Below are positions 5,137-7,272 of a stretch of DNA of 29,694 nt, in pieces. This DNA comes from a virus. The notes beneath the pieces were generated by a model. The model was given only the letters and a program-made list of their open reading frames with translations, did no database searches and had not been told where the DNA came from. Made by a program: the position numbers and the translations under genes. The stretch is taken from positions 1 to 29,694 of IMG/VR virus record IMGVR_UViG_3300042868_001588; one strand, written 5' to 3'. Position 1 is the stretch's first letter. The number at the start of each line of letters is the position of its first letter.

Positions 5137-5538
5137 ATGAACGACAAAATAATAGAAGTAATCCGTGTTTTTATTGATCGCGACGGATTAAACACACCAA
5201 ACAGAAAGCGCCAACAGATTTACAAAAAGGCGTATTTACAGCACAAGCTAAAGGAATGCGGACTAACTTACAAAGCTATAGCTGAAATGTTCAATATGAC
5301 GCACGCCAGCGCTATTCATAACATTAAGACGCACCATATACTAGTACAATACCACAAAAACGAATACGAAGCATATATATACGAATATCTAGAGGCTTTA
5401 GACGGCTATAAAGTAGAACCAAAAACACGGAATTTAATAGAAGACATTAACAATTGTGCTAATTTATACCAGTTAAATAGAGTTAAACGCTGGATTCGGG
5501 AAAAAAAATATGAAATAGATGCAACTTTAATAGAGTAA
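5137..5538 (+). CDS. DnaA domain IV-like HTH protein
   Basis: A 133-residue protein. Residues 43-68 (LTYKAIAEMFNMTHASAIHNI) match the helix-turn-helix of the DNA-binding C-terminal domain of DnaA, including the H/A-S-A-x-x-H signature of the recognition helix (DnaA has DHSTVxHA). There is no AAA+ ATPase domain, so it cannot act as a full DnaA. It may bind DnaA-box-like sequences at a phage origin or act as a transcription factor. It is the last gene before a structured gene-free stretch and the replication genes, which supports a role in replication start. The C-terminal half (residues 70-133) is helical and charged and not recognised. Confidence 0.6.
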   Translation: MNDKIIEVIRVFIDRDGLNTPNRKRQQIYKKAYLQHKLKECGLTYKAIAEMFNMTHASAIHNIKTHHILVQYHKNEYEAYIYEYLEALDGYKVEPKTRNLIEDINNCANLYQLNRVKRWIREKKYEIDATLIE

Positions 5539-5544
5539 TTACGT

Positions 5545-5552
5545 TATATTTG
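5545..5552 (+). promoter_or_regulatory. -7 promoter element (TATATTTG) for the structured RNA
   Basis: A perfect TAnnTTTG match seven bases after the preceding stop. No TTG is found at the right distance upstream (the sequence there reads GCAACTTTAA), so the -33 part is weak. A start about five bases downstream falls at 5557, the first base of the first hairpin of the RNA described next. The weak -33 leaves room for help from an activator. Confidence 0.5.
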
Positions 5553-5556
5553 TACA

Positions 5557-5648
5557 TGCGTTCATCCGACATTATAAACGCAAAGGTATTATTTAGCCAT
5601 TTTAATGAACAAGAGGTCGGATGCTTGGGATTTAAAGTGGCTTTTTTT
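5557..5648 (+). ncRNA. Candidate structured small RNA or leader with kissing loops
   Basis: The stretch 5539-5668 has no gene. Hairpin 1: TGCGTT (5557-5562) pairs with AACGCA (5577-5582), 6 bp, 14-base loop. Hairpin 2: AGCCATTTTAA (5595-5605) pairs with TTAAAGTGGCT (5632-5642), 11 bp with one G-U, 26-base loop, then a run of seven T. CATCCGAC in loop 1 (5563-5570) is the exact complement of GTCGGATG in loop 2 (5616-5623), giving an 8-bp loop-loop contact. A competing pairing GTTCAT (5560-5565) with ATGAAC (5605-5610) would open both stems. A -7 element sits just upstream. I know no named family with this arrangement. It may be a stand-alone RNA of about 92 nt or a leader controlling the replisome gene at 5669. 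Confidence 0.55.
5595..5648 (+). terminator. Terminator-like hairpin ending the small RNA
   Basis: The 11-bp stem of hairpin 2 is closed by AGCC/GGCT and is followed directly by T5642-T5648. The 26-base loop is long for an intrinsic terminator, so it may work as an attenuator whose fold depends on the loop-loop contact with hairpin 1. It lies 21 bases before the ATG of the replisome organizer. Confidence 0.5.
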
Positions 5649-5668
5649 ATGCTGAAAAATTAAATACA

Positions 5669-6283
5669 ATGAGTAAAGAACTTCCATTCTTTAAGTTTAA
5701 CGCCACCGAGTGGATAACTGGTAATATAAGTTACGAATCATTTGAACTTCAAGGCGCATTTATTAGCGTATGTGCTGAATACTGGAATCGTAATAACCAG
5801 ATGACAATAGAAGAAGCAAAGCTGCGTTTACGTAATGCCGAAATAGTTGATTTATTAATAGCAAAAGGATATTTAAAAACGAAAAAAAATAATTTAGTTA
5901 TTAGATTTTTAGATTTAGAGAAACAAGAAATAACAGCTAAACGTTTGAAACTCAGTGAATCTGGACGCAAGGGTGGCTTAAGCAAGGCTAAAGCGTCGCT
6001 AAAGCAAGGCTCTAGCATTATAGATAAAGATAAAGAAGAAGATACTATAATAGTTCGCAAACAAAAGTTTGGCGATAAATTAAAACCTTTTTTAGAATCT
6101 TATGAAAAGCAAATGATTAGGGAATTTTTTGACTATTGGACTGAACACGGCGACAAAGACAAGAAAATGCGATACGAAAAACAGACTTCGTTTAACATTG
6201 AATTACGCTTAAAGACATGGCTTAAAAATAAAATCGAAAGAAATAAACCTAAATTTAATTTACCCACTACAATTATAGACTAA
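5669..6283 (+). CDS. Replisome organizer / primosome-type replication protein
   Basis: A 204-residue protein. The first 90 residues (ELPFFKFNATEWITGNISYESFELQGAFISVCAEYW) have the winged-helix pattern of phage replication initiator N-terminal domains (DUF1376 / phage_rep_org_N type). A GRKGGLSKAKAS linker follows, and the C-terminus has FFDYWTEHGDKDKKMRYEKQ...RLKTWLKNK, a block shared by many phage replication proteins. Such proteins bind the origin and load the helicase. The next gene, overlapping by one base, is the helicase, so this pair acts like lambda O/P or DnaA/DnaB. The 130-base structured leader suggests RNA-level control of its expression. Confidence 0.75.
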   Translation: MSKELPFFKFNATEWITGNISYESFELQGAFISVCAEYWNRNNQMTIEEAKLRLRNAEIVDLLIAKGYLKTKKNNLVIRFLDLEKQEITAKRLKLSESGRKGGLSKAKASLKQGSSIIDKDKEEDTIIVRKQKFGDKLKPFLESYEKQMIREFFDYWTEHGDKDKKMRYEKQTSFNIELRLKTWLKNKIERNKPKFNLPTTIID

Positions 6284-7272
6284 TGTACAAAAGACTAACA
6301 AACGTAAATAACGAACTTTTCGATATACGCCAACAGAAAGACGTACGCGGAAAGTCAATAGGCTGGGACTGGGATTTATTACCATACACAATAAAAGAAG
6401 GCTGTACTACTTACATAGGTTCTGCGCCAGCTAGTGGAAAAACGGAACTTTGGTTCGAAATTCTTATAAACCTTTCGTGTTTACATAACTGGAATCATGT
6501 AATATTTTCGCCAGAAACTGGGAGTAGTGCTGAAATATTCGCCGAACTATGCTATAAGTATATAGGAAAACCCTACGTACAAGGTCAAAACTCTATGTCG
6601 AACAGCGAACAAGTAATAGCTGAAATGTTTATTAACGAACATTTTATTGTAATTGATCCAATAGATGAAGACCTAACTATTACAAAATTCTACGAACTAG
6701 TAGACGAAATAGAGAAAAAAGAGGGAATGAAAATTCACACCACTACTATTGACCCTTGGAACGAACTAACCGAGGAGTTTATACAAGCTGACCTAGGACG
6801 CGAAGACAAGTATCTTAGTAGGATTTTAGGACAAGTAAGAAAAAACGCGCGTAAAACTGGACGCCATAACTGCGTAATTAACCACGTACGCGACCAACCT
6901 ATGGTAAGTAGTAAAACAATAGCTGGAACCGACATAAGTTATTTTCCTATGCCTAGCGCTAGAGACTTCGCGGGGGGTCAAGTTTGGTTTAGAAAAGGTC
7001 TAAGCGTATTAATACCATGGAGACCACCTTATGGCTTGTTGGATTCAGAGGGTAACGGCGCAGAAAAGAACGAAGTACATTTAAAAGTAGCCAAAAGCAA
7101 ACCTAAAGGCGTATCGAAAAACGGAGTTTATAAGTTATATTTGGACTTAGATAAATACCAGTATTATATGCTAGATTTTAAAGGAAATAGGATTTACGCA
7201 AATAGGGAAAAGAAACAAGCGCCACAGCTTAAAATGACAAATTTAGGACACAAATTAAAATCAATGCAATAA
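6283..7272 (+). CDS. DnaB-like replicative helicase / RecA-fold ATPase
   Basis: A 329-residue RecA-fold ATPase. Walker A is GSAPASGKT (residues 46-54), Walker B is TTTIDPWNE with Asp157, and a HVRDQP block near residue 201 fits the third sensor region of DnaB/KaiC-type ATPases. A DnaB N-terminal domain is absent, so it resembles the shorter helicases of small phages that rely on a partner loader. It unwinds the phage fork 5' to 3' in the usual model. The start codon shares one base with the stop of the replisome organizer (TAATG), and the stop likewise with the next start. Confidence 0.85.
   Translation: MYKRLTNVNNELFDIRQQKDVRGKSIGWDWDLLPYTIKEGCTTYIGSAPASGKTELWFEILINLSCLHNWNHVIFSPETGSSAEIFAELCYKYIGKPYVQGQNSMSNSEQVIAEMFINEHFIVIDPIDEDLTITKFYELVDEIEKKEGMKIHTTTIDPWNELTEEFIQADLGREDKYLSRILGQVRKNARKTGRHNCVINHVRDQPMVSSKTIAGTDISYFPMPSARDFAGGQVWFRKGLSVLIPWRPPYGLLDSEGNGAEKNEVHLKVAKSKPKGVSKNGVYKLYLDLDKYQYYMLDFKGNRIYANREKKQAPQLKMTNLGHKLKSMQ

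Follow-up and report, generated by a model that had tools for sequence, protein, structure and literature searches.

Control of replication through leader RNAs is known from plasmids, in the form of the ColIb-P9 repZ pseudoknot and the pT181 attenuator. For plasmids of the I-complex, PMC10724649 describes loop–loop (kissing) pairing by RNAI and ascribes the incompatibility behaviour of close relatives to differences in their loops. Among phages, HK022 carries putL and putR, whose RNAs are described in PMC9378689 as about 70 nt long with two stem-loops, putL lying just downstream of PL; putRNA binds the zinc-binding domain of the RNA polymerase β′ subunit, and distant terminators are read through. 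Attenuator and riboswitch leaders place a promoter-near structured RNA and a terminator before a start codon, and c4 antisense RNA, Flavo-1 and 6S-flavo are among the Rfam families of phages or Bacteroidetes (PMC2864571).

The element considered here belongs to a virus whose host is probably a Flavobacterium-like bacterium. Like the put sites, it is a phage sequence of the 70–90-nt range with two stem-loops behind a promoter motif, and would act in cis; unlike them, it has kissing loops and a built-in terminator (hairpin 2 has the form of one), which the portion of PMC9378689 consulted does not mention for put, and its phages and hosts are different ones. It shares with the plasmid leaders (PMC10724649) a structured leader before a replication gene and loop–loop pairing, the role of the gene being assigned here by weak family matches and annotations; whereas an antisense RNA makes the kissing complex in the plasmids, both loops here lie in one RNA. 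It differs from attenuator and riboswitch leaders in that its terminator hairpin belongs to the kissing fold, and in that no conserved antiterminator helix was found in the covariation scan. Like c4 antisense RNA, Flavo-1 and 6S-flavo (PMC2864571), it is a structured RNA of phages or Bacteroidetes, but in the stretches tried no Rfam family matches it at E ≤ 1. Structured leaders that act in cis, attenuators among them, are an already known kind; what is new is kissing with the terminator's own loop and, in a second type of element (type B), a third loop copy at the start codon.

Layout of the element in the window

The window, that is, the whole 29,694-nt stretch of virus DNA analysed, carries the element between a 133-aa gene (5137–5538) and the 204-aa first gene of a presumed operon (5669–6283); all features lie on the plus strand unless stated otherwise. 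These two genes had been called DnaA-like and replisome organizer in an earlier, sequence-only reading of the window. Neither reaches the Pfam cut-off, the 133-aa protein has no match among solved structures at E ≤ 1, and the 204-aa protein matches PHROGs of unknown function. The second gene (329 aa, 6283–7272) matches the phage DNA primase/helicase family phrog_239 weakly (E 8e-11), and the replication role ascribed to the downstream genes rests on weak family matches and on annotations of cultured phages.

At the 5′ end of the element stands TATATTTG (5545–5552), a putative promoter element of the Bacteroidetes −7 type, whose consensus is TAnnTTTG. Some 24–31 nt 5′ of its last base, overlapping the end of the 133-aa gene, lies GCAACTTT (5521–5528), each letter of which is the commonest at its place (56–87%) among 54 upstream sequences, 49 of them distinct; it sits in the place of an expected −33 box, but is not the canonical TTG. 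On the minus strand, TACCTTTG (the complement of CAAAGGTA at 5581–5588) is also promoter-like, and its letters vary among the aligned relatives.

Four helices are recognized in the window's element by reading and alignment: stem 1, stem 2, P3 and the loop–loop helix K1:K2. Stem 1, apparent both on reading and from covariation, pairs TGCGTT (5557–5562) with AACGCA (5577–5582) and encloses the kissing segment K1, CATCCGAC (5563–5570), together with the remainder of loop 1, ATTATA (5571–5576), which reads NNNATA in all 56 aligned relatives introduced below, the ATA having been part of their selection pattern. The unpaired linker GGTATTATT (5585–5593, from the alignment) likewise served to select these relatives and is constant among them by construction; other relatives have AGAAGTTATT or similar at this place. 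Stem 2, the terminator stem (5595–5605 with 5632–5642, from covariation), comprises 11 pairs, one of them G-U. An internal loop of TGAA (5606–5609) facing GGAT (5628–5631), with GA opposite GA, parts it from the 4-bp helix P3 (CAAG at 5610–5613 with CTTG at 5624–5627, from covariation), which presents the second kissing segment, K2 (GTCGGATG, 5616–5623, the exact reverse complement of CATCCGAC), on a 10-nt loop. Seven T (5642–5648), the presumed site of intrinsic termination, and an A-rich segment (5649–5668), assigned from its spacing to the ATG, lead to the start codon of the 204-aa gene at 5669, 26 nt past stem 2. The sequence-only reading had every coordinate right for stem 1, stem 2, the 8-base loop complement, TATATTTG and the seven T; its two kissing hairpins are upheld by covariation, but its structure was incomplete in that P3 had been missed.

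A covariance model finds a single copy in the window (94.5 bits; next match E = 0.18). Minimum free energy is unremarkable for the window's element (z −1.08; 30 of 200 shuffles equally good) and does not reveal it, the method being blind to loop–loop pairing; a simple terminator scan of the window does not report the T-run hairpin because it allows loops of 3–8 nt only. A sequence-free descriptor (promoter motif, hairpin, loop complement of at least 7 nt and stem before a T-run) picks out a single place in the window and has no hit across 3 Mb of order-3 Markov sequence with 3002 promoter-like sites; it had been loosened after a stricter version missed Flavobacterium phage 11b, and the Markov null was then recomputed.

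Conservation and covariation of the fold

Relatives were collected from IMG/VR with the 204-aa protein as query (72 loci) and with the 133-aa protein (20 loci, several on contigs already found), and from viral contigs with a promoter-plus-linker pattern, which gave at least a further set of loci with many chance matches among them. The 56-set consists of at least 56 distinct type A elements among the matches listed, the window's included, which were picked by primary sequence without regard to pairing and aligned with MAFFT; its rule (a TAnnTTTG-like motif, ATAR, GGWAHTATT and a T-run) makes those places invariant by construction, and L052, L132, L177 and L183 match the covariance model but fail it. 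The 114-set (at least 114 distinct type A elements among the matches listed) used landmarks of the 3′ half only, namely TGA, GA, A and GT at fixed places plus a T-run, and the type B set (26 distinct) used AGTAGYG, CRCGAA, ACC and a T-run, invariance at these places again being by construction. Counts across the 114-set are not independent, since the sequences are related.

The compensating changes to which the sequence-only reading had looked for confirmation are found in both stems and in the loop–loop helix. Across the 56-set, the structure it named plus P3 is paired in 97.5% of 1618 base-pair cells, against 72.4% in shuffles, and slid registers reach at most 46%. Double-sided changes occur in 23 of the 29 pairs and in 420 cells (shuffled mean, 117), a count that 0 of 500 shuffles reach; the sole measure that does not stand out is the number of further pair types (56 against 55.0 in shuffles; 200/500). 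Cells are paired in 89.4% of cases for stem 1, 99.8% for K1:K2, 99.2% for stem 2 and 100% for P3, with double changes in 6/6, 6/8, 7/11 and 4/4 pairs, respectively. RNAalifold, unaided, predicts 20 nested pairs in the same set, 16 of them with double changes, and the GA/GA of the internal loop between stem 2 and P3 is present in 56/56.

The kissing pair behaves in the same manner. K1 is the exact complement of K2 in 55 of the 56 elements, the whole set having 14 distinct K1/K2 combinations; the one exception, L009, with one mismatch and one G-U, looks like a recombinant from its sequence. Across the 114-set, with 21 K2 alleles, an exact K1 lies upstream of K2 in 105 elements, mostly at one distance, and of the remaining nine, by eye, L009 agrees with it in 6 of 8 letters and the other eight in 7; a K1 belonging to another allele turns up in only 5 of 2280 tests. 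When mutual information is scanned with average-product correction over 112 unique rows (effective number 59), each of the ten highest-ranking column pairs belongs to one of the four helices, although for K1:K2 the scan is not independent, K1 having been positioned where it best fits the K2 complement; the MAFFT alignment and the allele test on the 114-set are independent in this respect. Lower ranks of the scan hold helix pairs mixed with shadowed neighbours, and no further helix, whether rival or antiterminator, appears among its 60 top column pairs.

Seven combinations of stem 1 and P3 occur with more than one K2 allele in the 114-set, and therefore both loops have changed while the stems stayed. 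The variety of alleles does not by itself show selection on the loops, because the stems vary as much (22 stem 1 cores, 21 K2 and 19 P3 sequences). The two hairpins and their kissing loops are, on this comparison of sequences, almost certainly real, covariation in relatives being what we regard as the decisive evidence.

Transcription had been proposed to start at or near stem 1, and the motif spacing agrees with this: in 45 of 56 elements, 5 nt separate TTTG from alignment column 8, where stem 1 has its second base. An alternative pairing of 5560–5565 with 5605–5610, which the sequence-only reading saw as a possible switch, is present in the window and is not conserved; 66.1% of its cells are paired in the 56-set, against 60.5% in shuffles, with a double change in 1 of 6 pairs. 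A small coding ORF through the element was also considered and rejected, as an ORF of at least 25 aa runs from the 5′ end in 19 of the 56 elements and is absent in 37; the window's own element falls within an open frame.

Genomic setting, type B elements and cultured phages

Placement was tabulated for 64 elements, 56 of type A and 8 of type B; the latter came from a first type B regular expression with 10 distinct matches, of which L078 and L090, which have no K2, were left out. The distance from stem 2 to the ATG (taken as the first one, 12 nt or more downstream, whose frame stays open for 40 codons or reaches the contig end) is 21–27 nt in 63 of the 64 and 50 nt in the other. Single-linkage clustering at E 1e-4 sorts the first genes into 14 clusters; a member of the 204-aa family comes first after 27 elements and second after 28, and the 133-aa family lies upstream of 52. 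The location before replication genes given by the sequence-only reading holds, while the DnaA-like neighbour is only partly general (52/64; in Cellulophaga phage phi19:1, the element lies about 7 kb from the gene annotated DnaA). In only 2 of the 56 type A elements does a promoter motif lie in the gap from stem 2 to the gene. The 19 loci whose upstream gene is 87.6–96.2% identical to the window's (one over a partial gene) carry six alleles, including one of type B, and the sequences suggest either that the element is exchanged as a block between close phages or that it is fast-changing. At L048, L098, L163 and L185, the first gene past the element belongs to one family that on reading resembles HNH homing endonucleases, and the site may therefore attract insertions.

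Type B elements (26 distinct) have a 6-nt K1 in hairpin 1 and an AGTA/GAA internal-loop motif, which was part of the search pattern and which we take to be of the bulged-G, sarcin-ricin type. Their K1 is the exact complement of K2 in 26/26, with four K2 alleles that all read CTGCNN, and 1 of 78 tests detects the K1 of another allele. A third copy of K1 stands between T-run and start codon in 23 of the 26, 19 of these copies being flanked by at least three complementary pairs; copies of other alleles appear in 0 of 78 tests. As a general feature of type A, a third loop copy was rejected: 110 of 114 elements, the window's included, are without one, and the four that have it (7 nt) all carry K1 CCTTCGAC. 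Two unusual arrangements were also seen. On one contig, L052, the type A element (at 130) is joined by a type B-like one (GGTTACGG/CCGTAACC) at 2697 before another gene. Another, L050, has a third layout at about 991–1190 before a relative of the 204-aa gene, with AACGGTGATG near the promoter and CATCACCGTT in a terminator-like hairpin, detected only at relaxed thresholds.

Cultured phages carry the architecture as well. The type A model scores 48.2 bits (E 3e-8) in phi19:1 and gives a weak match of 24.4 bits (E 0.003) in Flavobacterium phage morran9-1. Applied to morran9-1, Flavobacterium phage 11b and phi19:1 (over 50.0 of its 57.4 kb), the descriptor finds one place in each; it is also positive in the stretches examined of filifjonk9-1, mumin9-1, snusmum9-1, phi18:3 and Olleya phage Harreka_1; it finds none in Leeuwenhoekiella phage Arctus_1 or in the examined stretches of Riemerella phage CRP5, phi13:2, phi19:3 and Nekkels_1. 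These cultured Flavobacterium, Cellulophaga and Olleya phages have the architecture in common, and the sequences are different. By eye, phi10:1 has the phi19:1 element with TATATTTA in place of TATATTTG, and for that reason escapes the descriptor. The LMO9 phages, which share one host (Flavobacterium sp. LMO9), show compensating loops: GTGAGAAG/CTTCTCAC in morran, GTGAGACG/CGTCTCAC in filifjonk, and GTGGAACG/CGTTCCAC in mumin and snusmum. With the morran stretch as query, blastn returns 52 records at E ≤ 0.01, counting GenBank/RefSeq duplicates; 46 are Flavobacterium records and 6 Cellulophaga records, and 30 cover at least 80% of the query; the Cellulophaga matches listed cover only the part 3′ of the element.

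Two side observations concern these genomes. A conserved short hairpin GGT-AATCTTAAA-ACC, slightly varied, lies just 5′ of the start codon of an approximately 70-aa gene in several cultured flavophages (L351, phi19:1, about 959–975; L352, morran9-1, about 970–987; also L364, L367 and L368) and is possibly a second RNA element. In Nekkels_1 (L353, about 545–690), where the descriptor is negative, the loop complements ATTGGAA/TTCCAAT and TCTAAC/GTTAGA are visible by eye before a terminator-like hairpin.

Searches elsewhere bear on distribution and novelty. The sequence-only reading knew no named RNA family of this form, and Rfam 15 agrees, giving no match at gathering score in the window and none at E ≤ 1 among 5 loci and 10 cultured-phage stretches. 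Pattern scanning of genome contigs gave one match, in a Marinifilum genome, with no element visible around it; absence from chromosomes and prophages is thereby weakly shown, because the pattern fits only 38 of the 114 known type A elements. The covariance model found none in 395 Bacteroidota genomes among the best ten candidates per genome in the rows listed; of six virus records used as a positive control, five gave one type A match each and the sixth was a type B record. A blastn search with one type A element gave no match among phages and plasmids, and an exact 27-nt pattern from the window gave none in viral contigs. The literature searched, which covered few subscription papers, holds no recognisable description of the element or its relatives; the main text of PMC7077304, on Baltic Flavobacterium phages, never uses the terms "terminator", "promoter", "secondary structure", "noncoding" or "intergenic". 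By its sequence, the element looks like an RNA family without a description in that literature or in the Rfam stretches tried.

The attenuator reading and its alternatives

We hold with moderate confidence that the element is a cis-acting leader of about 90 nt, made from its own promoter, that acts as an attenuator of the phage replication operon. Transcription would start at or near stem 1 from the putative TATATTTG promoter, and hairpin 1 would form first as the RNA leaves the polymerase. Emerging K2 would then pair with K1, P3 and stem 2 would close next, and most transcripts would stop at the T-run. A phage or host factor reading the compact fold and its unpaired bases would increase read-through and so turn the replication genes on, control being exerted through binding to the fold, or through a stronger or weaker kissing helix, and not through classical two-state refolding. 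In computed folding of the growing transcript, the predicted best fold contains K1:K2 when 68–80 nt are out and stems 1 and 2 at 90 nt, and K1:K2 as a free duplex comes to about −11.8 kcal/mol. For the type B relatives, in which the start codon has a third K1 copy beside it, an effect of K2 on translation as well is conceivable.

The element resembles an attenuator by its anatomy, because a promoter-proximal terminator precedes genes without a visible promoter in the gap: a hairpin stands directly before a T-run (partly owing to selection) between the promoter motif and the first gene. No mutually exclusive antiterminator helix was found, and a factor-dependent attenuator needs none; as there is no conserved competing helix, regulation by factor binding or a polymerase-modifying role would fit better than a classical switch. 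Several points weigh on the other side. T-runs belonged to the selection patterns; short distances from element to ATG are common anyway in compact phage genomes; and the two elements of L052 precede different genes. For the cultured phages, the attenuator reading is weakened because the annotated ATG lies about 45–55 nt past stem 2 in phi19:1, phi18:3, morran9-1 and filifjonk9-1 (by eye), and because the T-run of phi19:1 and phi18:3 has just four T, which makes a weak terminator.

The sequence-only reading had offered a stand-alone small RNA beside the attenuator, and of the two the attenuator fits better. Such an RNA would act in trans on phage or host messages, its terminator just ending the RNA, and the promoter motif of its own, the compact fold and the T-run would suit it; yet the two loops vary jointly through many alleles (21 for K2), which leaves K1 and K2 without a fixed outside target, neither 8-mer occurs elsewhere in the window, to which that search was confined (one occurrence each), and the spacing to the next start codon is fixed in 63 of 64 elements. 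We regard this reading as unlikely. Rather unlikely, in our estimate, is a leader that controls translation or message stability, in which a 5′ kissing fold would protect the message or govern ribosome entry and the T-run would be no real terminator. The constant distance to the ATG speaks for it, as do the third copies before the start codon in type B (23/26, 19 of them flanked) and in the four type A elements of one allele; the other 110 type A elements have no such copy, and a stem closed at its base by G+C pairs and followed by 6–8 T is a usual form of terminator, though T-runs were selected for.

A nascent fold that, as in HK022 put, binds RNA polymerase and carries it past its own and later terminators would account for some 90 nt with two hairpins directly behind a promoter motif. 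We consider it improbable: putRNA is described as V-shaped, its first stem containing a triplex, the main text of that paper (PMC9378689) uses neither "kissing" nor "pseudoknot", and hairpin 2 here itself resembles a terminator, the likeness to put being judged from description, not sequence. Improbable to the same degree is a switch made of RNA only, in which K2, in the terminator hairpin, would serve two identical partners, K1 at the 5′ end and, for type B, a third copy (K3) at the start codon, and released leaders would also pair in trans with new transcripts of the same allele. A DNA-level element, such as an origin or inverted repeats bound by a protein, with an incidental RNA fold, would suit the site at replication genes and the inverted repeats K1 and K2, but from promoter motif to T-run one strand shows covariation of four helices arranged as a pseudoknot, and no GC-skew switch occurs at the site; we judge it very improbable.

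As an attenuator leader, the element may set the level of the replication-gene products. It is a strongly supported RNA element at the start of replication genes, in phages for which no regulatory RNA is described in the literature searched, and a 5′ hairpin that kisses the terminator's loop would be an unusual way of tuning termination. Because some of its carriers are in culture together with their hosts, direct tests can address whether the promoter is used, whether transcripts terminate and whether the loop–loop contact is needed. With matched loop alleles apparently exchanged between close phages, RNA incompatibility becomes a question open to experiment: if the RNA-only switch were true, it would be a self-measured, allele-specific brake on the replication genes, like plasmid copy control, and loop alleles would act as incompatibility groups between near-identical phages.
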